Positions 11,711 to 46,359 of a stretch of DNA of 64,000 bases are shown one piece after another; the stretch's first letter is position 1; every line of letters starts with the position of its first letter. Location: the NCBI GenBank assembly GCA_030835385.1, contig JAURPI010000025.1:124001-188000 (forward strand). Direction: 5' to 3'. The position numbers and the translations under genes were made by a program. The notes beneath the pieces are model-generated. The model did no database searches, was not told the origin of the DNA, and was given only the letters and a program-made list of their open reading frames with translations. This DNA comes from Alphaproteobacteria bacterium. Lineage in GTDB: Bacteria; Pseudomonadota; Alphaproteobacteria; Rhodospirillales; Rhodospirillaceae.

Positions 11711-12709
11711 ATGGCTCCATCACTTCAAGCGACAAAAGTAACTGCCGACCCGGATAGCGGTCAGGCTGATTTGACTGTTGCACGACGCGTTTTAAACCAG
11801 GCGGGTGATGGCTTGTCGATGATGGCCGATGAGCTCGGAGACGAATTTGTTAAATGCATCGAGCTCGTTTCCGGGTTGGATGGCCGGTTAATCGTTTCTG
11901 GCATGGGGAAGAGCGGTCACATCGGCAACAAGATTGCCGCAACGTTGGCCTCGACTGGTACGCCCGCATTCTTTGTTCATCCTGGTGAAGCAAGTCATGG
12001 CGATCTTGGTATGATCGCCGACGGTGACGCCGTCCTTGCCTTGTCGAACAGTGGTGAAACACCAGAGCTGTCCGATCTTGTTTCTTATACACGCCGCTTT
12101 GGCATCCCTTTGATAGGTATGACCGGTAAAAGGAAATCCACCCTGGCGGAGCAATCAGATATTGTTTTGTGTTTGCCCAATATAAACGAGGCCAGCCCGC
12201 ATGGCTCACCGACAACATCAACCACATTGATGATTACTTTAGGAGATGCCCTCGCGGTGGCACTTCTCGAACGACGTGGATTTACTGCGGACGACTACCG
12301 GCTCTTTCACCCAGGCGGCAAGATCGGCAAGAGTTTGTTCAAGGTCGCCGATCTTATGCATAAGGATGATGAAATTCCGCTGACACGTCCCAATTCACTT
12401 ATGAGTGATACCATCCTGACGATGACCGAAAAAACGTTCGGAATAGCGGGGGTGTTGGACACAGCTGGTAAGCTGGCCGGGATAGTCACCGACGGTGATT
12501 TGCGTCGCCATATGGACGGTCAATTGGTCGACATGTCTACTTCCGATGTGATGACGACAAATCCTAAGACCGTCGGACCAAACATGCTTGCTGCGGAAGC
12601 GCTACGCCTGATGAATGAATGGAAGGTCACCTGTCTTTTCGTTGTAGAAGAGGGCACGCCTGTTGGAATTCTAAGGATGCACGACATCCTTCGTGCGGGC
12701 GTTGTATGA
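11711..12709 (+). CDS. kdsD: KpsF/GutQ family arabinose-5-phosphate isomerase
   Basis: GMGKSGHIGNKIAATLASTGTPAFFVHPGEASHGDLGM SIS domain plus two CBS domains; upstream of lptCAB. Confidence 0.95.
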   Translation: MAPSLQATKVTADPDSGQADLTVARRVLNQAGDGLSMMADELGDEFVKCIELVSGLDGRLIVSGMGKSGHIGNKIAATLASTGTPAFFVHPGEASHGDLGMIADGDAVLALSNSGETPELSDLVSYTRRFGIPLIGMTGKRKSTLAEQSDIVLCLPNINEASPHGSPTTSTTLMITLGDALAVALLERRGFTADDYRLFHPGGKIGKSLFKVADLMHKDDEIPLTRPNSLMSDTILTMTEKTFGIAGVLDTAGKLAGIVTDGDLRRHMDGQLVDMSTSDVMTTNPKTVGPNMLAAEALRLMNEWKVTCLFVVEEGTPVGILRMHDILRAGVV

Positions 12710-13407
12710 CGGAGACACGACACAGTTCGATTGAAGTTTCAGCCGACCAAAACACGCCTAGCTCCCGCGGCGCGTGGCAGCCACGCTCGGTAGCGATCCG
12801 AGACTCTGTTGAAAAATACAGCCGGTTTGTTTCCGCAATGAAAGTGGTGTTGCCTAGCGTTGCTGGCCTTTTGTTGGCGCTGGTTATCATTTTGCCGCAA
12901 CTGCGCGGTGAGCCGGAGCAGCTAACGGCTGATATTGCAATCACAACTGATGATGACGGAGGTGCGTTGAGTTTGGTGAACGCTCGCTATCTCGGCACGG
13001 ACACTTCAGGTCAGCCATTCACAGTAACTGCTGAATCAGTACGCGAGGCTGGCGGGGGCGACGACAATATCGACCTCACTGCACCTCAGGCCGACATTAG
13101 CTTAAATGATGGAACCTGGTTAATGGTCGGGGCCGACACCGGGCGCTATCACCGAGAATCACAGACACTTAATTTAGAAGGCGCTGTTAATTTGTTTCAG
13201 GATCAAGGGTATGAGCTCCATACAGAGTCTGCCGTTGTCATGCTCGAACAAGGCGCGGCGACAAGTTCAACGCCGGTACAAACGCAAGGTCCATTTGGAC
13301 GACTTGAATCCCAAGGGTTTGATCTGCAAGACAAAGGCAAAGTTGTGTTCTTTACTGGGCCAGCCAAGCTGGTCCTAGATTCAGCGGGCAATGGTTCAGG
13401 TGGTTAA
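12706..13407 (+). CDS. lptC: LPS export protein LptC-like (YrbK family)
   Basis: ATG at 12706 overlaps the kdsD stop; single TM near N-terminus; position between kdsD and lptA. Confidence 0.85.
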   Translation: MTETRHSSIEVSADQNTPSSRGAWQPRSVAIRDSVEKYSRFVSAMKVVLPSVAGLLLALVIILPQLRGEPEQLTADIAITTDDDGGALSLVNARYLGTDTSGQPFTVTAESVREAGGGDDNIDLTAPQADISLNDGTWLMVGADTGRYHRESQTLNLEGAVNLFQDQGYELHTESAVVMLEQGAATSSTPVQTQGPFGRLESQGFDLQDKGKVVFFTGPAKLVLDSAGNGSGG

Positions 13408-14276
13408 TGAGTATGCGAATTTATAGTCTAATGTTTGCGCTACTTGCCCCGTCAATCGTTCACGCGCAAACCCTGTCCTTTCAACCTGACGACCCCGATA
13501 AGCCTATAGAGATAATCGCGGATCTCGGTATCGAATGGCAGCAAGAGGAAAAGCGGTTTATCGCGCGCGGGTCTGCCAAGGCGATACAAGGTGATGTTGA
13601 AGTATTAGCTGATGAACTGATTGCACATTACCGTGACAAAGAAGACGGTGGAACAGATGTCTATCGCGTTGACGCTTTAGGCCACGTGACCATCAAGTCT
13701 GCTGGGGAAACAGCGACGGGCACCGCTGCGGTGTATGATTTCGAGCAAGCAGTGCTGGTCATGGAGGGGTCGCCGGTCACCTTGGTCACTGTTGATGGCA
13801 CTGTTACGGCATACGACACGCTGCAGTACTGGGAACAAGAAAACGTCGCGGTCGCAGAAGGGAATGCGACGGCTGTGAAGGATGGGCAGAAATTGACCGC
13901 TGACACATTGACGGCGCGCTTTAAAGAGCCTGTCGGAGGATCAGGGAACGCCTCGCCGCAAAGAAGCGGGGAGTTGGACCGTCTCGAAGGGTTTGGCAAT
14001 GTCAGGATGGACAGTAAGGGCGATATTGTGCTCGGTGATCGCGGTCGATATGACCTCAATAGCGGCATTGCAACGTTGGACGGCAACGTACGCATCACCT
14101 CAGACAGCAACCAATTAAGCGGTGGGTTTGCTGTCGTCGACACCAATAGAGGTGTGAGTACGTTATATGCCAGTGCCACCGAGGCCGGTGTGCCTGGGCC
14201 TGGAAAAGCCCCCCGTGTTCGGGCGCTGCTCGTGCCACGTCCAAAAGGGGTCACGAATTCTGCGGATTCAGAGTAG
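13407..14276 (+). CDS. lptA: LPS transport periplasmic protein LptA/OstA family
   Basis: Signal peptide then PIEIIADLGIEWQQEEKRFIARGSAKAIQGDVEVLADEL OstA-like pattern; between lptC and lptB. Confidence 0.9.
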   Translation: MSMRIYSLMFALLAPSIVHAQTLSFQPDDPDKPIEIIADLGIEWQQEEKRFIARGSAKAIQGDVEVLADELIAHYRDKEDGGTDVYRVDALGHVTIKSAGETATGTAAVYDFEQAVLVMEGSPVTLVTVDGTVTAYDTLQYWEQENVAVAEGNATAVKDGQKLTADTLTARFKEPVGGSGNASPQRSGELDRLEGFGNVRMDSKGDIVLGDRGRYDLNSGIATLDGNVRITSDSNQLSGGFAVVDTNRGVSTLYASATEAGVPGPGKAPRVRALLVPRPKGVTNSADSE

Positions 14277-14329: not shown

Positions 14330-15109
14330 ATGGCGCCGGATACGGTGGAAAACAGCAATACACCAGATTCGCCAAAAGATGTCAGCGAAGAAGGTTTGAC
14401 GGTTGAGGGTCTTGGAAAGTCCTTCAAAGGCCGACCTGTATTGCGTTCCGTTAGTCTATCTGTACACCGGGGTGAAGCTGTCGGCCTGCTTGGTCCAAAT
14501 GGTGCGGGTAAAACGACATCCTTCTATTGTGTGACAGGTCTTATAAGTCCCGATGAGGGTCAGATATTTCTGGACGGTGAAAATATTACGCCGCTGCCGA
14601 TGTACCGCCGGGCTAGATTGGGGATCGGTTACTTGCCGCAAGAAGCATCGATCTTCCGTGGTATGACCGTTGAGGCAAATATTCGTGCTGTTGCTGAAGT
14701 CATCGAATCTGACAAGGACGCCCAGGACGAATTGGTCGAATCCTTGTTGGACGAATTTAATGTGGCTCACTTGAGGCAGTCGCCCGCTCTAGCACTGTCC
14801 GGTGGCGAGCGCCGCCGGGTCGAGATTGCACGTGCCTTGGCCTCGCGACCAAATTTTCTGCTTTTGGACGAACCGCTTGCAGGCATCGACCCAATCGCTG
14901 TTGCTGACATACGTGACCTTGTGTCCCATCTCAAAGATCGCGGTTTAGGCGTTTTGATTACTGACCACAATGTGCGTGAAACCCTGGACATCATTGATCG
15001 CGCGTACATCCTGCATGAAGGAACGGTGTTGATGGAGGGCGCCCCATCGGAAATCGTGGCCCATGAAGGGGTGCGCCGGGTGTACCTGGGAGAGCGCTTC
15101 AGTCTCTAG
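14330..15109 (+). CDS. lptB: LPS export ABC transporter ATP-binding protein
   Basis: GLLGPNGAGKTTSFYC Walker A, LSGGERRRVEIARALA signature, LLDEPLAGIDP Walker B. Confidence 0.97.
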   Translation: MAPDTVENSNTPDSPKDVSEEGLTVEGLGKSFKGRPVLRSVSLSVHRGEAVGLLGPNGAGKTTSFYCVTGLISPDEGQIFLDGENITPLPMYRRARLGIGYLPQEASIFRGMTVEANIRAVAEVIESDKDAQDELVESLLDEFNVAHLRQSPALALSGGERRRVEIARALASRPNFLLLDEPLAGIDPIAVADIRDLVSHLKDRGLGVLITDHNVRETLDIIDRAYILHEGTVLMEGAPSEIVAHEGVRRVYLGERFSL

Positions 15110-30234: not shown

Positions 30235-31050
30235 TTAAAGGTATAATTCAGTAAACGTGCCGTCTACCAGGTGCTGACGAAGCGTGTTTTGCAAATCGAA
30301 CGTGTTCTCATGGGTTAGGGCTAGCTCTGTTGCTGTTCCCAGGGTTTCACCGGATGTAAGGGCGCGGAGCCATATCAATGTTTCCATTGGCACAACGCGC
30401 TGCATCACTGTGTGAGCCGGGCGCAATACAAACCCGCTTTCGGGATGCGAGAAGTCGATCTCAGGTACGCGATCCTGATCTGGCTGATTGACGTGCCATA
30501 GGGTGAAAATAGGGACGTCGGATTCAAGCAATCGAAGAGTCGGGGATACTGAAAACTTTATGTCAGCTATCTGTTCCGCCGGAACCTCAGCTAATCTTTC
30601 AGGGTTCAGGGCGGCGCTGTCGGCGGCAAAATAAGCTTCGACCCGGGTCCATTCCAGGCGTGCAACGTCGGGCAGATATGGCAAATCATTGGCGGGTGCA
30701 AAAGAACTAATAAAATCTGGCAGCGCGTCGCCATACCGAAATAGTGTCGGCTGTTGTGGCGGATGGGTTTTGATGAAGTCCTTCGCTAAGGCCTGAAAGA
30801 ATCGATCTCCGACTATGCGCTGAATTACTGGATAGGCAGCAGATAAAACATCGATCAAACTGTTCAGAGTATTGGCATGGTAAACACCCAATCGGCGTTC
30901 TATTGCACCGCGCGGTGTGGCAACATGTGGCAGCAAGGCCTCCACCGAATTGGTCAAGGCAACGTCTGCGAAGCTTTTCTGAAGGTCATGCAACACGGGA
31001 TGAGCCTTCAGATGAAGAGACCGAATCGATGTGACGCTGCGCGGTCTCAC
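30235..31050 (-). CDS. bufC: DUF2063 protein, BufC/HvfC-like partner of MNIO enzyme
   Basis: LHDLQKSFADVALTNSVEALLPHVATPRGAIERRLGVYHANTLNSLIDVLSAAYPVIQRIVGDRFF DUF2063; adjacent to MNIO gene. Confidence 0.85.
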   Translation of the reverse strand: MRPRSVTSIRSLHLKAHPVLHDLQKSFADVALTNSVEALLPHVATPRGAIERRLGVYHANTLNSLIDVLSAAYPVIQRIVGDRFFQALAKDFIKTHPPQQPTLFRYGDALPDFISSFAPANDLPYLPDVARLEWTRVEAYFAADSAALNPERLAEVPAEQIADIKFSVSPTLRLLESDVPIFTLWHVNQPDQDRVPEIDFSHPESGFVLRPAHTVMQRVVPMETLIWLRALTSGETLGTATELALTHENTFDLQNTLRQHLVDGTFTELYL

Positions 31051-31891
31051 CTTCGCCTAAGAGGACCTCAAGGTCAGGGATGTCTGTGTCCCACTCGATC
31101 AAAGTGGGTCGTGGTCCGAGTTTTTCTAACGCCAGCTTATATAGCGACCAAACTGGATCTGCGACGGTGTCTCCATGGGTATCAATTAAAAGACGATCTT
31201 CTCCATCCCCTTCTAAGGAGTGGCCGGCGAGGTGAATTTCACCCACGGCGTCTCCTGGGATTCCGTCGAGATAGGCAGTCGTATCAAACCCGTTGTTTTC
31301 CGCGCTGACATAAATGTTGTTGACGTCGAGCAGCAGTCCACAGCCGGTTCTTTGGGATAGCGCGGTTAAAAAGTCCCACTCGGTCAAAACTGAGTCCACG
31401 AACGTCAGATAGGAGGATGGATTTTCAACCAGTATTTGCTGTCCTAAGCGCTCCTGAGTCTGATCCACGTTTTGGGCAACAGTGACTAGAGCCTCTTCGG
31501 TGTAGGGAAGTGGCAGTAAGTCGTTCACGTATATGTCGTCGACAACGCTAAAAGATAGGTGTTCGGATACCAGCCCAGGCTCGAAGCGATCGACCAGGGT
31601 GCGCAACGCAGAGAGATGGTCCGCGTCAACGCCCTGCGCAGACCCTAACGATAAACCAACACCGTGGCAGCTGATCGCATAATGCTCACGCACTTGCTCT
31701 AGTTGCGCTATGCGTGGTCCACCAGCGGCAAAAAAATTCTCGCTATGGATTTCTATCCATGCCGCTGACGGCGTTCCAGACGCGAAATCAGACATGTGCG
31801 GATGACGAAGCCCGACTCCTGCTCGCGCAGGAATCGGGCCTGGCCGCACAGAGCGTGTCGAAGGCTGGTCCTGGGGAGGGGGAGAGGTCAC
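30986..31891 (-). CDS. bufB: DUF692/MNIO family protein, BufB-like
   Basis: PARAGVGLRHPHMSDF, WIEIHSENFF, SEHLSFS, LLDVNNIYVSAENNGFD, EIHLAGHS, DTHGDTVADPVWSLY motifs. Confidence 0.93.
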   Translation of the reverse strand: MTSPPPQDQPSTRSVRPGPIPARAGVGLRHPHMSDFASGTPSAAWIEIHSENFFAAGGPRIAQLEQVREHYAISCHGVGLSLGSAQGVDADHLSALRTLVDRFEPGLVSEHLSFSVVDDIYVNDLLPLPYTEEALVTVAQNVDQTQERLGQQILVENPSSYLTFVDSVLTEWDFLTALSQRTGCGLLLDVNNIYVSAENNGFDTTAYLDGIPGDAVGEIHLAGHSLEGDGEDRLLIDTHGDTVADPVWSLYKLALEKLGPRPTLIEWDTDIPDLEVLLGEGETAQRHIDSVSSSEGSSRVA

Positions 31892-35581: not shown

Positions 35582-37315
35582 ATGTTCTCACCAACTCCTA
35601 CCAGCAACGCCAGCCTGCCAAAACGATTGGCAGACTTTCCGACTCTTCCAGACGCTCTTGATTATGCGGCGCAGGGAGAAACCGGGTTTAATTTTTATTC
35701 TTCTCGGGGACATTTAAATGAGGTTCTGCCGTTCGCTGACCTGAGCGCAAAGGCCCGGGACGTGGCCACGAACCTTTGTGGCGCAGGCATTGTGTCTGGT
35801 GACCGTGTTGCGCTTCTTGCAGAAACGGTGCCTGCGTTTCTCATCGCTTTTTTTGCCTGCCAATATGCTGGTGTTATTCCGGTGCCAATGCCCACGCCCG
35901 TCGCGTTTGGTCGTCGCGATGCGTACGTCGGTCAAATTCGCAATCAAATCACATCGTCTGGCGCGGTCATGGTGATCACGCCGTTGGAATTTATGCCATT
36001 TGTTGAAGAGGCCACCGACGGACTTGATTTGCTGTTGATCGGGACATTGGATGATCTCAGGGCGCAGCCACAGGCTGATGGTCTTAGTGCAGGCGGTCCC
36101 GATGATCTCTGTTATCTGCAATACAGTTCTGGAAGTACGCGCTTTCCAAAGGGTGTGGCGGTAACTCACGACAACCTGATGGCCAATTGTGCTGCCATGA
36201 ACGTGGCGGTCAACGTATCAACTGAGGATCGCGGTGTATCCTGGTTACCGTTTTACCATGACATGGGTTTGGTGGGTTTCATGCTCGGTTGCCTCACCTC
36301 CCAAACAACTGTCGACTTTATTCCGACGGAAGAATTCGCTCGTCGTCCACTCGCCTGGCTCCGGATCATCAGTGAAAATCTGGGCACGATGTCCTACGGC
36401 CCCAGTTTTGGGTACGAGTTATGTAGTCGGAGATTCTCATCATCAAATGCTGCTGCCCCTAACTTAGATTTATCCAGCTGGCGCGTTGCGGGGATAGGCG
36501 GTGAGATGATTAAGCCGCAGGTCATGCACGCGTTTGCAGACTTGTTTAAGCCGTACGGGTTTGCAGATACGGCCTTTAACGCTTCTTATGGCTTGGCTGA
36601 ATGCGTGCTTGGCGTCAGTTTTAGCACGCCAGGGCACGGCATGTTGCTCGACCATATTTCAAAGCAGGAGTTGGGGGACAATCATCGCGCGGTTCCGATT
36701 GATGATGATGGTTCTGGAGCCGGTCGTACCTTTGTGGCCTGTGGTGGCGTGATTGACGGTCATACGGTCGAGATTCGTGATGACGACGGGGCGGTCATGG
36801 CAGAACGGGATATTGGCCGTGTCTTTTTCTCTGGTCCAAGTGTCATGCAAGGATATTTCGGTGATCAAGAGGCAACGGATGCCTGCCTTCAAGATGGGTG
36901 GCTGGATACGGGCGATCTCGGATATTTCTGGGGAGACCAGTTAGTTATTGTTGGGCGATCAAAAGATATGATGATCGTCAATGGACGCAATTATTGGCCG
37001 CAGGATATCGAATGGACCGTTGAACGCATGGACGGCATGAGGTCTGGCGATACCGCTGCATTCACTCTTGAGCAAGACGACGGTAGTGAACAACCAACCA
37101 TACTGGTGCAATGTAGACCCTCTGCCGCGGACATTCGCGAGGCATTGGTCGATGACGTGCGCTCAAGTGTCCAAAATCAAGTTGGATTGGCGTGTGACGT
37201 TATATTGGTGCCGCCGCGGACCTTGCCGAAAACATCATCCGGCAAGTTAGCGCGCGGCAAGGCCAAGGCGAACTTTCTCAGTGGCGAAATCCAACCCTTA
37301 GCCGCGGGCGCGTAG
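35582..37315 (+). CDS. fatty-acyl-AMP ligase, probable sphingolipid acyl-ACP synthetase
   Basis: LCYLQYSSGSTRFPKGVAVTHDNLMANCAAM FAAL signature; LPFYHDMGLVGFML; DTGDLGYFWGDQLVIVGRSKDMMIVNGRNYWPQDIEWT; followed by epimerase, ACP and SPT. Confidence 0.93.
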   Translation: MFSPTPTSNASLPKRLADFPTLPDALDYAAQGETGFNFYSSRGHLNEVLPFADLSAKARDVATNLCGAGIVSGDRVALLAETVPAFLIAFFACQYAGVIPVPMPTPVAFGRRDAYVGQIRNQITSSGAVMVITPLEFMPFVEEATDGLDLLLIGTLDDLRAQPQADGLSAGGPDDLCYLQYSSGSTRFPKGVAVTHDNLMANCAAMNVAVNVSTEDRGVSWLPFYHDMGLVGFMLGCLTSQTTVDFIPTEEFARRPLAWLRIISENLGTMSYGPSFGYELCSRRFSSSNAAAPNLDLSSWRVAGIGGEMIKPQVMHAFADLFKPYGFADTAFNASYGLAECVLGVSFSTPGHGMLLDHISKQELGDNHRAVPIDDDGSGAGRTFVACGGVIDGHTVEIRDDDGAVMAERDIGRVFFSGPSVMQGYFGDQEATDACLQDGWLDTGDLGYFWGDQLVIVGRSKDMMIVNGRNYWPQDIEWTVERMDGMRSGDTAAFTLEQDDGSEQPTILVQCRPSAADIREALVDDVRSSVQNQVGLACDVILVPPRTLPKTSSGKLARGKAKANFLSGEIQPLAAGA

Positions 37316-37325
37316 CGCGCCGGCC

Positions 37326-38270
37326 GTGACCGACCCACTGACCATCGCGATCACCGGGGCCACGGGATTTCTCGGCGGTCACCTCGTGGCGCAAGCACGG
37401 GCCGCTGGTCACCGTGTTCGTGCCTTATCACGCAAGCCGGTGAACACTAACACTAACCAAGATATCGTATGGATCACCGGCGCATTGGAAGATCAAGCCG
37501 CGCTTGAGACCTTGGTTACCGGTGCGGATATTGTGGTGCATGCGGCAGGAGCCATCAAAGCGCTGTCGCGATCTGAATTTTTTCATATCAATAAGGGTGG
37601 AACAGAGGCCGTCGTTCGTGCTGCGTATGCCCAAGGGGTGAAAAGCTTTGTATTGATCTCGTCTCTGGCCGCGCGTGAGCCAACGCTGTCACCCTATGCG
37701 GCAAGTAAACGAGCTGCGGAGTTGGTGGTCGATGACTATGCCGGTCAATTGAACACAATCATTCTTCGCCCGCCGGCCATATATGGGCCAGGCGATGAGG
37801 AGACTGTTAGTCTGTTCCAAATGGCTGTGAATGGATTCATGCTCGCTCCTGGGCACGCTTCTGCGCGCATGTCTCTGGTTCACGTTGGTGATGTCGCTTC
37901 AGCTATTTTGGCGTGTTGTGAACAGCCCCAATTCGAGGTGCTTTTTGAAATCGATGATGGCAAAGATGGCGGGTACCAATGGCGCGATCTGGCAGATGCT
38001 GCCGGTCTGAATGTCGGTCGCCCACTAAAAATTGCTCACCTAGCGGGCGCTGCAGTCTGGTTTATGGGGCTTTTGGGTACGTTAAAGGGCTTGCTGACCC
38101 GGTCTCCCGCTATGTTGACCTTGGCGAAAGTGCCAGAGCTTCGCCATCGTGACTGGGTGGCGAACGCCAAGCGTCCCGCTGGCTGGACCCCAAAGTGGTC
38201 TCTAAAAGACGGCTTCAAAGACGCAATCAATTGGTATTCCTCACAAAATGTTTTGAAACGTTACTTTTAA
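37326..38270 (+). CDS. NAD-dependent epimerase/dehydratase, ceramide-reductase-like (CerR-type)
   Basis: IAITGATGFLGGHLVAQARAAGHRVRALSR; SPYAASKRAAELVV; position between FAAL and ACP/SPT. GTG start. Confidence 0.88.
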   Translation: MTDPLTIAITGATGFLGGHLVAQARAAGHRVRALSRKPVNTNTNQDIVWITGALEDQAALETLVTGADIVVHAAGAIKALSRSEFFHINKGGTEAVVRAAYAQGVKSFVLISSLAAREPTLSPYAASKRAAELVVDDYAGQLNTIILRPPAIYGPGDEETVSLFQMAVNGFMLAPGHASARMSLVHVGDVASAILACCEQPQFEVLFEIDDGKDGGYQWRDLADAAGLNVGRPLKIAHLAGAAVWFMGLLGTLKGLLTRSPAMLTLAKVPELRHRDWVANAKRPAGWTPKWSLKDGFKDAINWYSSQNVLKRYF

Positions 38271-38374: not shown

Positions 38375-38647
38375 ATGTCGGCTGAACCTAGCGATGGCGC
38401 GTCGCAAGACGTGCGAGCTGCGGTTCTGGAGGTTTTGCAAACTTTCAATAAGACCGGCGTGAACCTTGAGGATGGGACTCGGTTTACAGAAGACCTGAAT
38501 TTCGACTCACTTTTGGTCATGGAGTTCATCGCAGCTCTTGAAGACCGTCTCGATATATCGGTGCCGCTAAACGTGCTTCCGGATATCGAAACTGTGGGGC
38601 AATTGGTCGTCGCGACCGAACAAATTGTTAGGGAAGAACATGGCTGA
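38375..38647 (+). CDS. acyl carrier protein (dedicated, SPT-associated)
   Basis: 90 aa; FTEDLNFDSLLVMEFIAALEDRLDISVPLNVLPDIETVGQLV with DSL phosphopantetheine site; overlaps SPT start. Confidence 0.93.
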   Translation: MSAEPSDGASQDVRAAVLEVLQTFNKTGVNLEDGTRFTEDLNFDSLLVMEFIAALEDRLDISVPLNVLPDIETVGQLVVATEQIVREEHG

Positions 38648-39872
38648 CTTATTTGATCGTTTTGAGTCACTGCTGGCACGCCGAGACTCTTTAGTTGGCG
38701 ATGGGGGTCACGATCCGTTTCAAGTTGAGATGGATGAAGTGCTGTCACAGACCGAAGCCATGATTGGCAATCGTCGCACCATCTTGGCCGGTACCAACAA
38801 TTATCTTGGACTGACGTTTGCGCCAGAGTCATTGCAAGCCGCACATGATGCCCTTGAAGCGGCAGGTACGGGTACCACTGGCAGTCGTGTTGCTAACGGC
38901 ACCTATAGTGGTCACAAGGCATTGGAGCAGGCGTTGTGTTCTTTCCTTGGTAAAGACCACGCCATCGTTTTCTCTACTGGGTATTTAGCCAACCTCAGTG
39001 TCTTGTCGACATTGGTCGGTCCTGACGATTACATCCTTATGGATGCAGACTGTCACGCGAGCATTTATGATGGCGTGCGAATGGGTGACGCTCAGATTAT
39101 TCGATTTAAGCACAACGATGCGGCGGATTTAGATAAGCGGTTGGCGCGCCTCGCGAAGAAGCCGGGCAACAAGCTGATCGTTATTGAAGGTATTTATTCC
39201 ATGCTTGGGGATAAGGCGCCTTTGGATGACATTGTTGCTGTTAAGAAAAAATACGACGACGTATATCTTCTTAGTGATGAAGCGCATTCGCTCGGGGTCC
39301 TCGGTCGTTATGGTCGCGGATTGCCAGAAGAAGCTGACCTCGAAGACGATGTTGATTTTATTGTCGGCACTTTCTCTAAGAGTGTCGGTACCGTTGGCGG
39401 CTTCTGTGTTTCCAGTCACCCACAGTTTGATTTGCTGCGCTTAGCTTGTCGTCCATACATCTTCACAGCCTCCTTGCCGCCATCTGTAGTGGCGTCCGCC
39501 AAAGCGTCTCTGGAGTTAGTTGAAAAAGGTGGCGCGCTGCGCAAACGGTTGATGCGTAATGCGGAGCGCCTTCATTCAGGACTCTCTGCTCTCGGCTTTA
39601 CGCTTGGAGGAGAAATAAGCCCTGTGGTTGCTGTTGTGGCGCCAGAGGTGGAAATCGGTGTGGCGTTTTGGCGCGGACTGATTGACGGTGGTGTTTACGT
39701 CAACCTTGCACTTCCTCCTGCGACGCCACAGAACTTTACGTTGTTGCGGTGCAGTCTCTGTGCCGCTCACACGACGGAGCAGGTCGACCGTATCATCGAA
39801 GTCTTTGCCGATGTGGCCGACTCTCTTGTCATGCTACCGAAGCAACCAAAGAAGAAAGTGGCGCTCGGCTAA
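38640..39872 (+). CDS. spt: serine palmitoyltransferase / alpha-oxoamine synthase
   Basis: NNYLGLTFAPESLQAAHDALEAAGTGTTGSRVANGTYSGHKALEQAL; SDEAHSLGVLGRYGRG; VGTFSKSVGTVGGFC PLP-Lys motif. Confidence 0.93.
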   Translation: MADLFDRFESLLARRDSLVGDGGHDPFQVEMDEVLSQTEAMIGNRRTILAGTNNYLGLTFAPESLQAAHDALEAAGTGTTGSRVANGTYSGHKALEQALCSFLGKDHAIVFSTGYLANLSVLSTLVGPDDYILMDADCHASIYDGVRMGDAQIIRFKHNDAADLDKRLARLAKKPGNKLIVIEGIYSMLGDKAPLDDIVAVKKKYDDVYLLSDEAHSLGVLGRYGRGLPEEADLEDDVDFIVGTFSKSVGTVGGFCVSSHPQFDLLRLACRPYIFTASLPPSVVASAKASLELVEKGGALRKRLMRNAERLHSGLSALGFTLGGEISPVVAVVAPEVEIGVAFWRGLIDGGVYVNLALPPATPQNFTLLRCSLCAAHTTEQVDRIIEVFADVADSLVMLPKQPKKKVALG

Positions 39873-39893: not shown

Positions 39894-40805
39894 TTAGTTC
39901 AGTCCACCCTGCCGTTTTATCCTGAACAACAAGCGCAGACCAGTGAGAACCGGGTGTGCCCGATCGCGTTCTGTCAGTTCGACCGCAACGCCTGTATGGC
40001 GTTCAATTTTCCAAGCTGCATAGTCCAGTCCGCTGCGGAATGTGAAAGCTGCTTTGATCAGTCGTAAAACGTTGAGAAACCGCCCCCACCAGCGTCGTGC
40101 CCTCCACGCCCAAACCGCACCCGTGTCAGATTTTGCTTCTACCGTTTGGCCTAGGCCAAGCGTTTCAATGGCTGCGGCGCCAACGCGAATGAATCGATCG
40201 CGTTGGGCATTCACCAACTCTTCCGCTTTAGAAGGCGGTTCAGGCCGTAGTTCTGCCCGGTACGTGGCTTGGAAGGCAGTGATCCACAAATCTTCAATTG
40301 TATAGGGGCCGGCCATTAGCGGTGCCGTTTTCTTGAGGAGTGTTGCCACAGCGCGAGAGAGAGCGTGTTCAACAGTCGTGCGAGCGGCGTCATTATTGGC
40401 ATAAACAATGGCGGCTGGCTGCGCAAAGCGGGCCCACAGGGCCGATGCGAAAGTTGTTTCCGCCGTGCCGCGGGCAAATCCGCCGAGTGTCATTACAGCC
40501 ACTTTGGCGCGGACCACCCGACCGTCGAAGTCGCACTCGTGATAATAGACATTCGGTGACAGAAGGGCACCAAAGGCGGCGCTGACCGGGTTTTTGATCG
40601 CATCGCTGAGGTTGTCAACCAGCACATAGAAGTCGAGCATCAGGTTTTCGTCCGTGCCGAGACGAAGGCAAGACCCATAAAACACAACAGCGCGCACGCT
40701 GGCTCCATAGGTATTTTTTAGATGATCGATCATCGCCTCAGCGGCGGGAAAGGCGGCGACCTGGCTTTCGGATTGTATAAGTGACATCAGAGCCATGGCT
40801 ACCAC
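39894..40805 (-). CDS. nucleotidyltransferase-like protein, probable sphingolipid headgroup function
   Basis: VRAVVFYGSCLRLGTDENLMLDFYVLVDN resembles G-S...D-x-D nucleotidyltransferase pattern; overlaps the lipid kinase gene. Confidence 0.6.
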   Translation of the reverse strand: MVAMALMSLIQSESQVAAFPAAEAMIDHLKNTYGASVRAVVFYGSCLRLGTDENLMLDFYVLVDNLSDAIKNPVSAAFGALLSPNVYYHECDFDGRVVRAKVAVMTLGGFARGTAETTFASALWARFAQPAAIVYANNDAARTTVEHALSRAVATLLKKTAPLMAGPYTIEDLWITAFQATYRAELRPEPPSKAEELVNAQRDRFIRVGAAAIETLGLGQTVEAKSDTGAVWAWRARRWWGRFLNVLRLIKAAFTFRSGLDYAAWKIERHTGVAVELTERDRAHPVLTGLRLLFRIKRQGGLN

Positions 40806-41833
40806 CGTACAAAGCGAAGTGCTTGGTTGCCATCGATGGTGAGAGGTTTGTCCTCGCTGGCATCGTATAATTCGCCATCCAAAGTGTAGCTGCCGTCGAA
40901 GGCGAAGGTGATGGAGGCGGTGCGCCGAACTGTCCGCTTGTTACTTTGTTTTAGTAGGCGTCTCAGCATATTGGGGACGGTCGAAAGAACCGCACCTGCG
41001 CCTGGTCGAAGACTGATGTAGTGGACCGGGCCATCGCCAACTTTCGGGTCGGGGCGCATACCTAGAAGCATTTTATCCATGGTGGTTGCTATCACGACAT
41101 AAAAGCGCCCGTCCTGTTGCCATCCATTCTGTTCGCCGGTCACTTTAATGGTGCCGCCTTGTTTTCCGCCCGTCATTGCACGCCAGAACAAGATGGCCAC
41201 TGCGGCCACATGCGACACCGTATTTGGCCAACCGCGGGGGTAAATGTTTTTACGACAGTAAAGAATGCCATCAACCACATCTGCACCACCGAAAAATGCG
41301 CCGTGGCGTGTCGGTGCCCCATTTTGGTATAGCGCAAGTACGGGCTGAGTGTGAATGGCATTGGCCAGGTTGCCGTTGGCATTTTTCCTGAGAAGAGACG
41401 CGAGGGCTTCGCGCCGATCTCCAGACAGGCTCCAGGCCGCCGCTGTCATGTTCGTTTTGCCGGAAGGCAGTAACGCCAAGACCGGTGGGGAGGTGTAGGG
41501 GCCATCGTTGAGGAGGCCAGAGAACACCAACCCTGCGGTGCCGTCTCCGCCGTCGACCACGAGGGTTTCAATCTCATTGGCAGCGCATTGGGCAAGAATC
41601 GTAGGCACATCGGTGATTTTGTCGATGATGAAATGTTGAACACAGTCATGAGCAGCCACAATATCGTTCAGCCACCCGCGGTCCTGTTGATTGCGGGTGC
41701 TCATATGATTGCTGAGAATGGCGACCGATGGTGGGGGCAAATCACTAGACCTAAGATGGATAGAGAGAGGCTCTACTCGGCTTACATAATGTTTCAAAAG
41801 CTTTGATTTGACGATCTTGAACTTGCCCGCCAT
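40799..41833 (-). CDS. diacylglycerol/ceramide kinase-like (DAGK catalytic domain) protein
   Basis: ETLVVDGGDGTAGLVFSGLLNDGPY GGDGT motif; LLPSGKTNMTAAAWSL; C-terminal FAFDGSYTLDGELYDAS. Confidence 0.82.
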   Translation of the reverse strand: MAGKFKIVKSKLLKHYVSRVEPLSIHLRSSDLPPPSVAILSNHMSTRNQQDRGWLNDIVAAHDCVQHFIIDKITDVPTILAQCAANEIETLVVDGGDGTAGLVFSGLLNDGPYTSPPVLALLPSGKTNMTAAAWSLSGDRREALASLLRKNANGNLANAIHTQPVLALYQNGAPTRHGAFFGGADVVDGILYCRKNIYPRGWPNTVSHVAAVAILFWRAMTGGKQGGTIKVTGEQNGWQQDGRFYVVIATTMDKMLLGMRPDPKVGDGPVHYISLRPGAGAVLSTVPNMLRRLLKQSNKRTVRRTASITFAFDGSYTLDGELYDASEDKPLTIDGNQALRFVRW

Positions 41834-41951: not shown

Positions 41952-43193
41952 ATGTTCAAAGCTCTCGACCTCTACCTCTTACGGCAGATCATGCCGACAC
42001 TGCTCGTCACCCTCCTGGTTGCGGCCATAATCTTGCTGCTCGAGCGGATGTTGCGGCTGCTCGATATTGCCGTGGGTAACGGTGTCTCGACCCTGGTTGT
42101 GTTTCAGATGCTGTTTAATTTGATTCCCCACTACATCGGTTTGGCGCTACCCGCTGCTTTGTTTCTGGGGGTGCTACTCGCGTTCCGCAAGCTCTCGTCG
42201 CAGTCTGAATTAGATGCGATTCAATCGTCAGGGATTGGTTTAAGCCGACTCATTCGATGGGCCGTGATATTGGGTCTGTTGATGATGATCTTTAATCTGA
42301 TTCTTGTCGGCTATCTGCAACCGATCAGCCGTTACGCCTATCGCGCTCTTTTGTTCAACGTGACCAGCGGTGTTTTAGAGTCTGGTATTGGCGAGGGCGT
42401 GTTTATGGATCTCCCCAACGGTTACACCCTCCGGGTTGAAGAATCTCGTGGGGCAGGTCGTGAGCTGTTTGGAGTATTTGCTCATCAACAAAAAGAGGAT
42501 GGCACTATCATTACGTTGACCGCGGAGCGAGGGCGCCTAGTCACAGGGGGCGCCGAACGCGCAACCAGTCTCCGTTTGTTCCAAGGTAACCGGTCTGAGT
42601 GGTCGCCGGGCGCAACCTCGGCCGACACAGTAAGCTTCGATGTGTTTGACTGGCCTCTCAATCTAAAAGATCTGATTCGGTTCCGCGTACGAGGTGGTGA
42701 TGAACGAGAGTTGACCTTGGATGAATTGTTGCGTGGTTATGTCGCCAATATGGAGGCGGAACGCACGGGCATCAGGCCTGGTGCAGTGAACCCACAAGAC
42801 AACCCTGAGCAACTGGTGCCACCGGCTGCGGTCGCGGCGGAGTTGCATGGTCGCATTGTCTTTTCGCTATCAATTTTGTTCTTGCCGATGCTGGCGGCCC
42901 CGCTAGGTATAATGACCCATCGGGCAAGCAAATCTTTTGGACTGGTTCTCGGCCTATTAACGTTGGTAGTCTATCACAAGATTCTGGAGTTTAGTGAAGC
43001 CTACGCAACGGTCGGGGGAATGTCGGCTGGGCCGGCCTTGTGGGTGCCCTTTGCCCTCTTTATTGGCGGGACATCATACCTATTTCTCAAGACCGAGATT
43101 GTCGCTGGGGCAACCCCAATGCAACGTCTTGAAGACCGATGGACCAATATGACCGGCGGTCTGATTCGACTGTTCCGCGGCAGCCGCGGCTAG
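41952..43193 (+). CDS. LptF/LptG family permease (LptF-like)
   Basis: MFKALDLYLLRQIMPTLLVTLLVAAIILLLERMLRLLDIAVGNG; HYIGLALPAALFLGVLLAFRKLSSQSELDAIQSSGIGL; ATG at 41952 in ORF 41808. Confidence 0.92.
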   Translation: MFKALDLYLLRQIMPTLLVTLLVAAIILLLERMLRLLDIAVGNGVSTLVVFQMLFNLIPHYIGLALPAALFLGVLLAFRKLSSQSELDAIQSSGIGLSRLIRWAVILGLLMMIFNLILVGYLQPISRYAYRALLFNVTSGVLESGIGEGVFMDLPNGYTLRVEESRGAGRELFGVFAHQQKEDGTIITLTAERGRLVTGGAERATSLRLFQGNRSEWSPGATSADTVSFDVFDWPLNLKDLIRFRVRGGDERELTLDELLRGYVANMEAERTGIRPGAVNPQDNPEQLVPPAAVAAELHGRIVFSLSILFLPMLAAPLGIMTHRASKSFGLVLGLLTLVVYHKILEFSEAYATVGGMSAGPALWVPFALFIGGTSYLFLKTEIVAGATPMQRLEDRWTNMTGGLIRLFRGSRG

Positions 43194-43205
43194 TACTCTA
43201 TTCCC

Positions 43206-44276
43206 ATGATTTTGTCCTGGTATCTCACGAAGGCCTACCTGTCGCGATTCTTTGCATTGCTGCTGGGCTTGGTCGTATTTCTGCAAATGCTAGACCTGCT
43301 GGCCAACGCGGATTCCGTGTTGGACGGTGGTGGTGACCCGGTCGACTCATTGGCGCGCTACATTATGTTGCGGGTGCCGTCGATCATTGAAACTGTTGCC
43401 CCTTTGGCTGCGCTCCTTGGCGGGCTAACGGCGCTGGTAGTTCTGGCCCGCAACAGCGAGATCATTGCTATGCGTGCGGCGGGTCGATCTGTGCTCAGTC
43501 TAGTCGGTGGCCTTGTGGTTGTTGGCATGGTGTTGGCACTCATGCTCTTTGCCTTCTCTGATGGTATAGTCGTGCGTTTCAACGCGCAGCTCGAGGATTG
43601 GAAAAGCACAGGCTACAAGCCTGGCGGTGAAATCGTTGATGGCAGTGAAGCGTGGGTGATTGAAGGTGACACCATCATCCGGGTTGGACACGTTCTACAA
43701 AACGGCGCCGTGCTCAATGACATTCGCCTGTTTCACCAAGGCGACAAAGCGACGGTCGCAGACATTATCAATATTCGTCTCGCGATTTGGGAAGATACTG
43801 GCTGGAACTTGTTCGAGGTGGCGCGTGTTGGTGGCAACGGTGTCGCGACCCCTGTTGGTCAGCCGACGTGGGAAACAAATCTTACGCCCGAAGATTTTAA
43901 CAAGCTCGCCAACCCACCCAGTGAATTGACCTTTGACGAATTAGAGCATTACGTACGCGAGCTCGCTCTCGGGACCCGCCCAGAATATTATTACGATACC
44001 TGGTTACAACGAAAATTGGCTGGACCTGCGGTGTTGGCTCTGATGCCATTGCTAGCGGCCATCGCGGCTTTCGCCCACCACCGTCAAGGTAGCGCTATCT
44101 TGGTTGTGGTCTATGGAATCTCGCTCGGTTTCGTTTTCATCATCACAGACAATATTTTGCTGGCGATGGGGCAGTTCGGCGCTCTGCCGCCGGTCGTGGC
44201 GGCCTGGCTGCCTTTGGCGCTGTTCGGCACCATAGGTTTATGGATTGTGGTAAACTTAGAGAACAGAGGCGCTTGA
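43206..44276 (+). CDS. LptF/LptG family permease (LptG-like)
   Basis: MILSWYLTKAYLSRFFALLLGLVVFLQMLDLL; IIETVAPLAALLGGLTALVVLARNSEIIAMRAAGRSV; 13 bp after LptF-like gene. Confidence 0.92.
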   Translation: MILSWYLTKAYLSRFFALLLGLVVFLQMLDLLANADSVLDGGGDPVDSLARYIMLRVPSIIETVAPLAALLGGLTALVVLARNSEIIAMRAAGRSVLSLVGGLVVVGMVLALMLFAFSDGIVVRFNAQLEDWKSTGYKPGGEIVDGSEAWVIEGDTIIRVGHVLQNGAVLNDIRLFHQGDKATVADIINIRLAIWEDTGWNLFEVARVGGNGVATPVGQPTWETNLTPEDFNKLANPPSELTFDELEHYVRELALGTRPEYYYDTWLQRKLAGPAVLALMPLLAAIAAFAHHRQGSAILVVVYGISLGFVFIITDNILLAMGQFGALPPVVAAWLPLALFGTIGLWIVVNLENRGA

Positions 44277-44363: not shown

Positions 44364-45179
44364 ATGGCATTAAAGATCGGCTTTTGGTCCGACCGGGAAT
44401 ACCACTTAGACCGAATGAATCTAGGTGATCTCGCTGCCGCGTACTTTCAATATTACGCCATAGCCGCGTATTTCGCGTTAGCTGCGGTGACAGGCGCCTA
44501 TGCGACTTGGGCTTGGATGAACGGTCTCGCGACCCTGACCGGAATTGCGGGCGCCGTTGTCGCGACGATTCTGATTTACCCATTGGTTTGGTATGTGTTG
44601 CACCGGTGGATTCTGCATTCCAAGTGGATGTGGAAATCCAAGCTTACCGCACCGGTCTGGAAGCGCATTCACTACGATCATCATTCCGATCCAAACAACC
44701 TCAAAGTTTTGTTTGGTGCACTCTATACAACCTTGCCAACCGTCGCTTTGGCTACGGTCCCTTTTGGGTTTGCTCTGGCTGGTTGGCCTGGTGCTGCTGC
44801 GGCTTTATGTGCAGGCGTTCTGCAAACGTGTTTCTACGAGTTTATCCATTGCATCCAGCACTTGGGGTATGTCCCCCAATGGGGCTGGGTTAAGCGCATG
44901 AAGAAGTTGCACATGGCCCACCACTTTCACAATGAGACTGGCAATTTCGGGATCACGAATTATTTGTGGGATCGTGTGCTCGGCACAATGTACGAGCAAA
45001 TTAAATTGCGACCCCGGTCAGAAACAGTGTTTAACCTTGGGTACGATGAAGAGGTAGCAAAGGACTATCCCTATGTGGCCGAGTTGACGCCCAACTGGCC
45101 GCATACCGCTAATCCAGTTCATCGTCAGCGTGAATATGCGCAAGAGTCTGATGATGGCGAACTCGCCCCCTCATCTTAA
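44364..45179 (+). CDS. sterol desaturase / fatty acid hydroxylase family protein
   Basis: Histidine clusters HRWILHS, HYDHHSDP, HHFHNETGNFGITNYLWDRVLGTMYE. Confidence 0.93.
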   Translation: MALKIGFWSDREYHLDRMNLGDLAAAYFQYYAIAAYFALAAVTGAYATWAWMNGLATLTGIAGAVVATILIYPLVWYVLHRWILHSKWMWKSKLTAPVWKRIHYDHHSDPNNLKVLFGALYTTLPTVALATVPFGFALAGWPGAAAALCAGVLQTCFYEFIHCIQHLGYVPQWGWVKRMKKLHMAHHFHNETGNFGITNYLWDRVLGTMYEQIKLRPRSETVFNLGYDEEVAKDYPYVAELTPNWPHTANPVHRQREYAQESDDGELAPSS

Positions 45180-45207: not shown

Positions 45208-46359
45208 ATGACAGCATCAGACATCACAGTTCGGCCGGTCACCACGCGTGCGGACCAGGAAGCTTTCTTGGCGTTGCCAGACGCCTTGTTCAGCGATGAT
45301 CCAGTGTGGGTACCGCCGTTGAAAATGATGGTGCGCGACCAATTAAACCCAAAGAAGAATCCTTGGTTTAGTCACGGCGAAGCGCAGTTGTTTCTCGCTG
45401 AACGCAATGGCGCGGTGTTGGGACGACTCTCAGCCCAAGTCGACCGCAGTCACCTTGAGCAACACAATGATGCGACAGGCTTCTTTGGCTTTTTCGACAG
45501 TGTTGAAGAGCAACCGGTAGCAGACGCTTTGTTTGAAGCGGCTGAGAGTTGGCTCAAGGAGCGGGGCATATCCCGTGTGCGCGGGCCATTCAGTCTCAAC
45601 ATCAATGAAGAATCTGGCTTGCTAGTTGAAGGCTTTGAAAGTCCGCCGCGTGTCGCCATGGGCCACGGCCAGCCTTTCTATCAAACACTGGTAGAGGAGG
45701 CTGGATTTGAGAAAGTGCGAGACCTATTCGCGTTCCTAACACCCATGGATACGGCGCTGCCCTACAAACATATAAAGTTGTTGCAACGCTCTATCGACCG
45801 TAATCCGGGCCTCACATTCCGTCATCTCGATCCGAAACACTACGACGAAGATATTCGCATTCTCGTTGACCTGTTCAACGGAGCCTGGGCTGAAAATTGG
45901 GGATTTATTCCCCTAACCGAAGCTGACGCGAAGCATATGGCCAATAAATTCAAGATGATCCTGATTCCAGAGTTGGTCTGGTTTGCGTTCTACGAAGGAA
46001 AGCCGGCCGCAATGGCGGTGGCATTGCCCGACCTTAATGAAATGATCCGTGATCTCGGCGACACCCTGTGGCCTATGGGCTGGATGAAACTGGCGTGGCG
46101 GGTTCTCACCCGCCGCACCTGGTCATCTGGGACGCGGGTTCCACTCATGGGCGTTGCCCCGCGGTTTAAAAACAAACCTCTTGGATCGGTGTTGGGCTTT
46201 ATGGTGATGGATGCGATCCGCCGCGAATCTCTCAAACTCAATATGCCGGTCTGCGAAATGAGTTGGGTGCTGGAAGATAACACCCAAACCCGCCACTCCC
46301 TCGAAACCATCGGTGGCCGGGTCTACAAAACCTACCGGATGTACGAGAAAGCGCTTTAG
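45208..46359 (+). CDS. GNAT-type N-acyltransferase, candidate bacterial ceramide synthase (bCerS-type)
   Basis: DPVWVPPLKMMVRDQLNPKKNPWFSHGEAQLFLAERNGAVLGRLSAQVDRSHLE; RVRGPFSLNINEESGLLVEGF; same neighbourhood as spt/ACP. Confidence 0.8.
   Translation: MTASDITVRPVTTRADQEAFLALPDALFSDDPVWVPPLKMMVRDQLNPKKNPWFSHGEAQLFLAERNGAVLGRLSAQVDRSHLEQHNDATGFFGFFDSVEEQPVADALFEAAESWLKERGISRVRGPFSLNINEESGLLVEGFESPPRVAMGHGQPFYQTLVEEAGFEKVRDLFAFLTPMDTALPYKHIKLLQRSIDRNPGLTFRHLDPKHYDEDIRILVDLFNGAWAENWGFIPLTEADAKHMANKFKMILIPELVWFAFYEGKPAAMAVALPDLNEMIRDLGDTLWPMGWMKLAWRVLTRRTWSSGTRVPLMGVAPRFKNKPLGSVLGFMVMDAIRRESLKLNMPVCEMSWVLEDNTQTRHSLETIGGRVYKTYRMYEKAL

Follow-up and report, generated by a model that had tools for sequence, protein, structure and literature searches.

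The LptF/LptG pair and the sphingolipid locus

As of 2024, the route by which bacterial sphingolipids arrive at the outer membrane was described as unknown (PMC11324152, PMC11087976), and according to the enzyme-location study of that year no flippase or transporter for these lipids had been identified (PMC11087976). The window (the whole stretch of 64,000 nucleotides that was analysed) is part of contig C13 of a genome of 3.28 Mb in 47 contigs, for which the closest relatives with a name are MAGs of the Rhodospirillaceae. The features of interest are the following:

12619-13407, +, lptC, presumed common to LPS export (PF06835; TIGR04409 39.7 bits, cut-off 38)
13407-14276, +, lptA, presumed shared (PF03968 7.5e-16)
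14330-15109, +, lptB, ATPase presumed shared by both LptFG pairs, the only canonical copy of the genome (TIGR04406 363.9 bits)
35582-37315, +, fatty acyl-AMP ligase in the aasR position (NF006624 774.6 bits)
37326-38270, +, NAD-dependent epimerase/reductase, presumed ceramide reductase CerR (PF01370 2.5e-31; synteny)
38375-38647, +, acyl carrier protein, acpR-like (FDSLLVMEF motif in the translation)
38625-39872, +, spt, serine palmitoyltransferase (NF047599 621.7 bits, cut-off 500)
39894-40805, -, conserved protein without family match between spt and the kinase (position of CC_1161)
40799-41833, -, lipid kinase, presumed ceramide kinase, CC_1160/CerK-like (PF00781 DAGK_cat 2.6e-11)
41952-43193, +, lptF2, LptF-type permease of the sphingolipid-linked clade, 413 aa (PF03739 1.1e-71; TIGR04407; clade 2 in the tree)
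43206-44276, +, lptG2, LptG-type permease of the same clade, 356 aa (PF03739 3e-64; TIGR04408; clade 2 in the tree)
44364-45179, +, fatty acid hydroxylase (PF04116 8e-21)
45208-46359, +, presumed bacterial ceramide synthase (weak GNAT match, PF00583 0.0015)

An earlier note on this DNA had read the ORFs at 41952-43193 and 43206-44276 as an LptF/LptG pair, and both are indeed found there, 12 bases apart. Each covers the whole PF03739 domain (242 and 218 bits, curated cut-off 27.9). A longer start for lptF2 (TTG at 41808) would run into the kinase gene, and homologues start at the ATG at 41952. With the NCBIfam models, LptF2 scored 229.5 bits against TIGR04407 (LptF, cut-off 230) and LptG2 passed TIGR04408 (LptG, an LPS equivalog model) with 270.8 bits against a cut-off of 240; automatic annotation will therefore tend to label both as LPS exporters, and LptG2 will be called one. 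AlphaFold models of both proteins (pLDDT 89 for LptF2 and 91 for LptG2) present a transmembrane bundle with an inserted periplasmic beta-jellyroll. By Foldseek the LptF2 model matches LptF chains of solved LptB2FG structures (E about 1e-16), while a profile of LptG2 matches LptG chains of the PDB (1e-61).

The pair lies, as had been described, between the lipid kinase, which is upstream and divergent, and the fatty acid hydroxylase downstream. The lptC-lptA-lptB block, placed about 27 kb away by the earlier note, is 26.8 kb upstream, and lptD is not adjacent but on contig C32. No ABC ATPase gene was found in the lptF2/lptG2 locus of the window, nor were LptC2 and a linked flippase as in Caulobacter. 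Elsewhere in the window (30235-31891, -), an MbnB/TglH/ChrH RiPP-modifying enzyme (PF05114, 348 bits) adjoins a DUF2063 protein (PF09836), resembling a RiPP-type enzyme pair.

Gene order was studied in 80 LptF2 loci from named records, 47 of which have full flanks. Among these 47, the presumed ceramide synthase is a neighbour of LptF2 in 43, the conserved protein without family match in 42, the kinase in 39, and spt and the hydroxylase in 35 each, so that the location in a spt-ceramide cluster seen in the window is a common feature. The pair was found together with its neighbours many times over, in dozens of named records, and the arrangement is therefore not due to chance. Ten loci of the Marinicaulis/Parvularcula type (L108, L115, L125-L127, L131, L136, L139, L140 and L146) had no match for spt, kinase or ceramide synthase in the fetched flanks; spt may lie elsewhere in those genomes.

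A CpgD-like nucleotidyltransferase is present in 34 of the 80 loci. This enzyme type is required in Caulobacter for ceramide diphosphoglycerate (PMC12275187). On contig C10 the source genome has a CpgD-like relative (31% identity), next to which lies a flippase-family gene with homologues in seven LptF2 loci. Ceramide phosphoglycerate is a plausible substrate of LptF2/G2, given the CpgD-like genes in these loci and the relative on C10 next to a flippase-family gene. Specifically, on C10 (L150:8693-11045) the nucleotidyltransferase is divergent from the flippase-family gene (PF01943), with nitrile hydratase genes nearby, and this region is probably a second sphingolipid island of the source genome. 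In locus L082, lptG2 and the hydroxylase are separated by a flippase-family gene for which BLAST detected no relation to that of the source genome.

A second LptFG pair in the source genome

The earlier note had left two options, a paralogous pair or a sole LptFG common to LPS and sphingolipids. Four PF03739 genes were counted in the source genome, which makes the window pair a paralog and led us to reject the second option. The other pair consists of a canonical lptF, which immediately precedes lptD on contig C32, and a canonical lptG located on contig C26. Concerning LptC, only one PF06835 match was detected in the source genome, at a sensitivity that a divergent LptC2 could escape.

Distribution among Alphaproteobacteria

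The survey comprised 192 alphaproteobacterial genomes, one per species and at least 90% complete; many are drafts, so single absences may be assembly gaps (e.g., lptB in G163 and G173). True serine palmitoyltransferases, scoring 590-676 bits with the next score at 331, were found in 29 genomes. At least four PF03739 genes were counted in 12 of these 29 and in one of the 163 others. Among the spt-lacking genomes, G018 bears a second, very divergent PF03739 pair (L065, C2:499772-501927; 82 and 76 bits), the LptF-like member of which sits on a very long branch in the tree.

The co-occurrence with spt that the earlier note had proposed to check was borne out: LptF2 is present in 27 of the 29 spt genomes and in none of the 163 others (Fisher 7e-31). 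The LptF2 profile gave 425-519 bits in these 27 genomes, all with spt, and 188 bits for the next best, so no spt-lacking genome comes near the group; the high scores are partly by construction, as the profile was built from the same 27 genomes. The LptF2 of the window, used as a single BLAST query among the fetched pairs, scored 137-256 bits with its own clade and at most 105 with canonical sequences, and the split is thus independent of the profile.

Two spt genomes lack LptF2. G064 (96% complete) carries spt, lpxC and only a canonical, lptD-linked LptFG pair. G055 (single contig, 100% complete) carries spt and lacks lpxC, lptF, lptG, lptC, lptD and canonical lptB. These two genomes indicate that spt can occur without LptFG2, which counts against an exporter reading.

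Phylogeny

The LptF tree (62 rows) and the LptG tree (58 rows) each split into a sphingolipid-linked and a canonical clade, separate and supported. The former contains spt genomes only in both trees. In the canonical clade are the spt-lacking genomes that were sampled, together with the second pair of LPS-making spt genomes, and no LPS-less spt genome falls inside it in either tree. When a genome has both spt and lpxC, the canonical pair usually adjoins lptD; the other pair is close to spt in every case in which the contigs make this visible. The window pair belongs to the sphingolipid-linked clade, apart from the lptD-linked pairs and from those of spt-lacking, LPS-only species. The result named in advance as refuting a dedicated exporter, a sole LptFG grouping with canonical LPS LptFG, was therefore not what was found.

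Genomes that lack the lipid A pathway

The survey includes a natural experiment that separates the two substrates: 16 genomes carry spt without lpxC, against 13 with both genes. Both LptFG pairs are present in 12 of the 13 spt genomes with lpxC, G064 having the canonical pair only. Among the 16 without lpxC, LptFG2 is the sole pair in 15, the exception being G055, which has no Lpt genes. LptFG2 is consequently not confined to lipid A-making genomes, as a canonical ortholog would be. In 12 of these 15 LPS-less genomes it lies within 15 kb of spt. The bridge genes are also kept: lptD in all 15, lptB and lptA in 14 each and lptC in 13.

The absence of lpxC could be an assembly artefact, and this was rejected by checking lpxB, as 15 of the 16 genomes lack both genes; G047, with a weak LpxB match, is the exception, so that among the 15 with LptFG2 lpxB is lacking in 14. 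Outside the spt genomes, lpxC is present in 151 of 163. Three spt-lacking genomes without lpxC (G048, G072 and G115) do carry lpxB, and their lpxC was therefore probably missed.

On the joined LptF2-LptG2 tree, which is a gene tree and not a species tree, there are five changes of LPS state, each matched by a change in the canonical pair. A strict independent-pairs test gave five contrasts (p 0.06), too few for a formal test.

These genomes bear directly on whether LptFG2 might be an additional exporter of LPS, serving a variant form or a particular growth condition and placed in the sphingolipid locus by coincidence. Its members do belong to the LptF/LptG superfamily, and LptG2 exceeds the LPS equivalog cut-off. 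Against this, the pair is the only LptFG of 15 spt genomes without lpxC, 14 of them also without lpxB, and it is absent from all spt-lacking genomes, most of which have lpxC. Its role as the sole pair where lipid A genes are missing largely refutes such an exporter, which we regard as very improbable.

Proposed function

Since the lipid A pathway is gone in the LPS-less genomes, the bridge they keep needs another user, and sphingolipid is the candidate. From the data above we infer the substrate, the direction of transport and the use of LptB and the bridge: LptB2-F2G2 probably extracts a ceramide-derived lipid and feeds it to a shared LptC-A-D bridge towards the outer membrane. One LptF2 and one LptG2 would be mounted on an LptB dimer and form the transmembrane part of an ABC extractor. 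The pair would pick up sphingolipid, probably as ceramide phosphoglycerate or a comparable anionic lipid, at the outer leaflet of the inner membrane and pass it onto the common bridge. LPS would be handled by LptF1/LptG1, the canonical pair that this genome encodes on contigs C32 and C26. The dedicated sphingolipid exporter suggested by the earlier note is thus supported, at the level of sequence, by the separate clade, the occurrence in spt genomes only and the sole LptFG of LPS-less spt genomes.

That the cargo is instead another lipid correlated with sphingolipid makers (a glycolipid, a phospholipid or a hydroxylated fatty-acid lipid) seems unlikely. The substrate is deduced from linkage and co-occurrence, and G055 has spt without any Lpt gene, both of which leave room for such a cargo; however, the tight linkage to genes for making and modifying ceramide across many records and the cofitness of Caulobacter CC_1156 with the sphingolipid genes (PMC11324152) argue for a sphingolipid.

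Concerning the ATPase, for which the earlier note had offered LptB or another enzyme, a shared LptB is the simplest reading, because LptF2 and LptG2 each have an invariant coupling-helix glutamate and a genome usually encodes a single canonical LptB. We give little credence to transport of sphingolipid by LptF2/G2 through an ATPase or outer-membrane port of its own. LPS-containing genomes leave room for one, and no canonical LptB is seen in the drafts of G163 and G173, but the locus bears no ABC ATPase gene, and lptB, lptA and lptD persist in LPS-less genomes, where there is no LPS left to carry.

With sphingolipid export through the shared LptB and bridge as the preferred reading, the Lpt bridge (LptB, C, A and D) may be a general conveyor of outer-membrane lipids, on which the substrate is selected by exchangeable pairs of permeases. 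Where LPS was lost, lineages would have kept the conveyor and only the sphingolipid-selecting pair, so that their LptD would insert sphingolipid; we somewhat favor this broader view. The loss of LPS and of canonical LptFG, together with the retention of LptFG2 and lptB/A/C/D, offers a specific answer to the question of sphingolipid transport, and LPS-less spt species would allow work on LptD and LptB with no LPS present.

Comparison with known systems

Compared to canonical LptB2FG (E. coli, Klebsiella, Shigella and other structures), LptF2/G2 has the same fold, periplasmic jellyroll and coupling-helix glutamate, and LptF Arg33 is retained in 25 of 27 LptF2 sequences. It differs in its separate clade, in the LptF2-specific residues Glu31, Tyr61 and Arg247 (80/80 loci) and in LptG2, where the Arg-Arg pair of canonical alphaproteobacterial LptG (at E. 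coli Lys40/Lys41) is lost, the two positions being basic in 1/27 and 3/27. Lys40/Lys41 of E. coli LptG contact LPS (PMC6744409), and the loss in LptG2 is suggestive of a new substrate. It is weak evidence, because this loop aligns unsteadily (a second alignment places it differently) and the E. coli K40E/K41E double mutant grows normally (PMC5548808). A charge argument in E. coli numbering was also tried and kept only as weak, the equivalents of K34 and R136 being acidic or variable in both alphaproteobacterial clades.

In Caulobacter crescentus, Olea-Ozuna et al. (2024) named CC_1168, CC_1156 and CC_1155 LptC2, LptF2 and LptG2 and proposed them as probable phosphosphingolipid transporters (PMC11324152). 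In the literature searched we found no functional test of LptF2/G2, and papers or preprints beyond that search may report one. The source genome resembles Caulobacter in having a second LptF/LptG inside the spt-ceramide cluster, and the presumed orthology to CC_1156/CC_1155 is based on gene order and clade. Unlike Caulobacter, no LptC2 was detected in the source genome, and the flippase-like and CpgD-like genes are on contig C10. The exporter idea is therefore that already proposed for Caulobacter (PMC11324152), of which the window pair is a further case; new here are the phyletic restriction to spt genomes, the division of the trees into two clades, and the retention of LptFG2 together with the bridge in LPS-less genomes.
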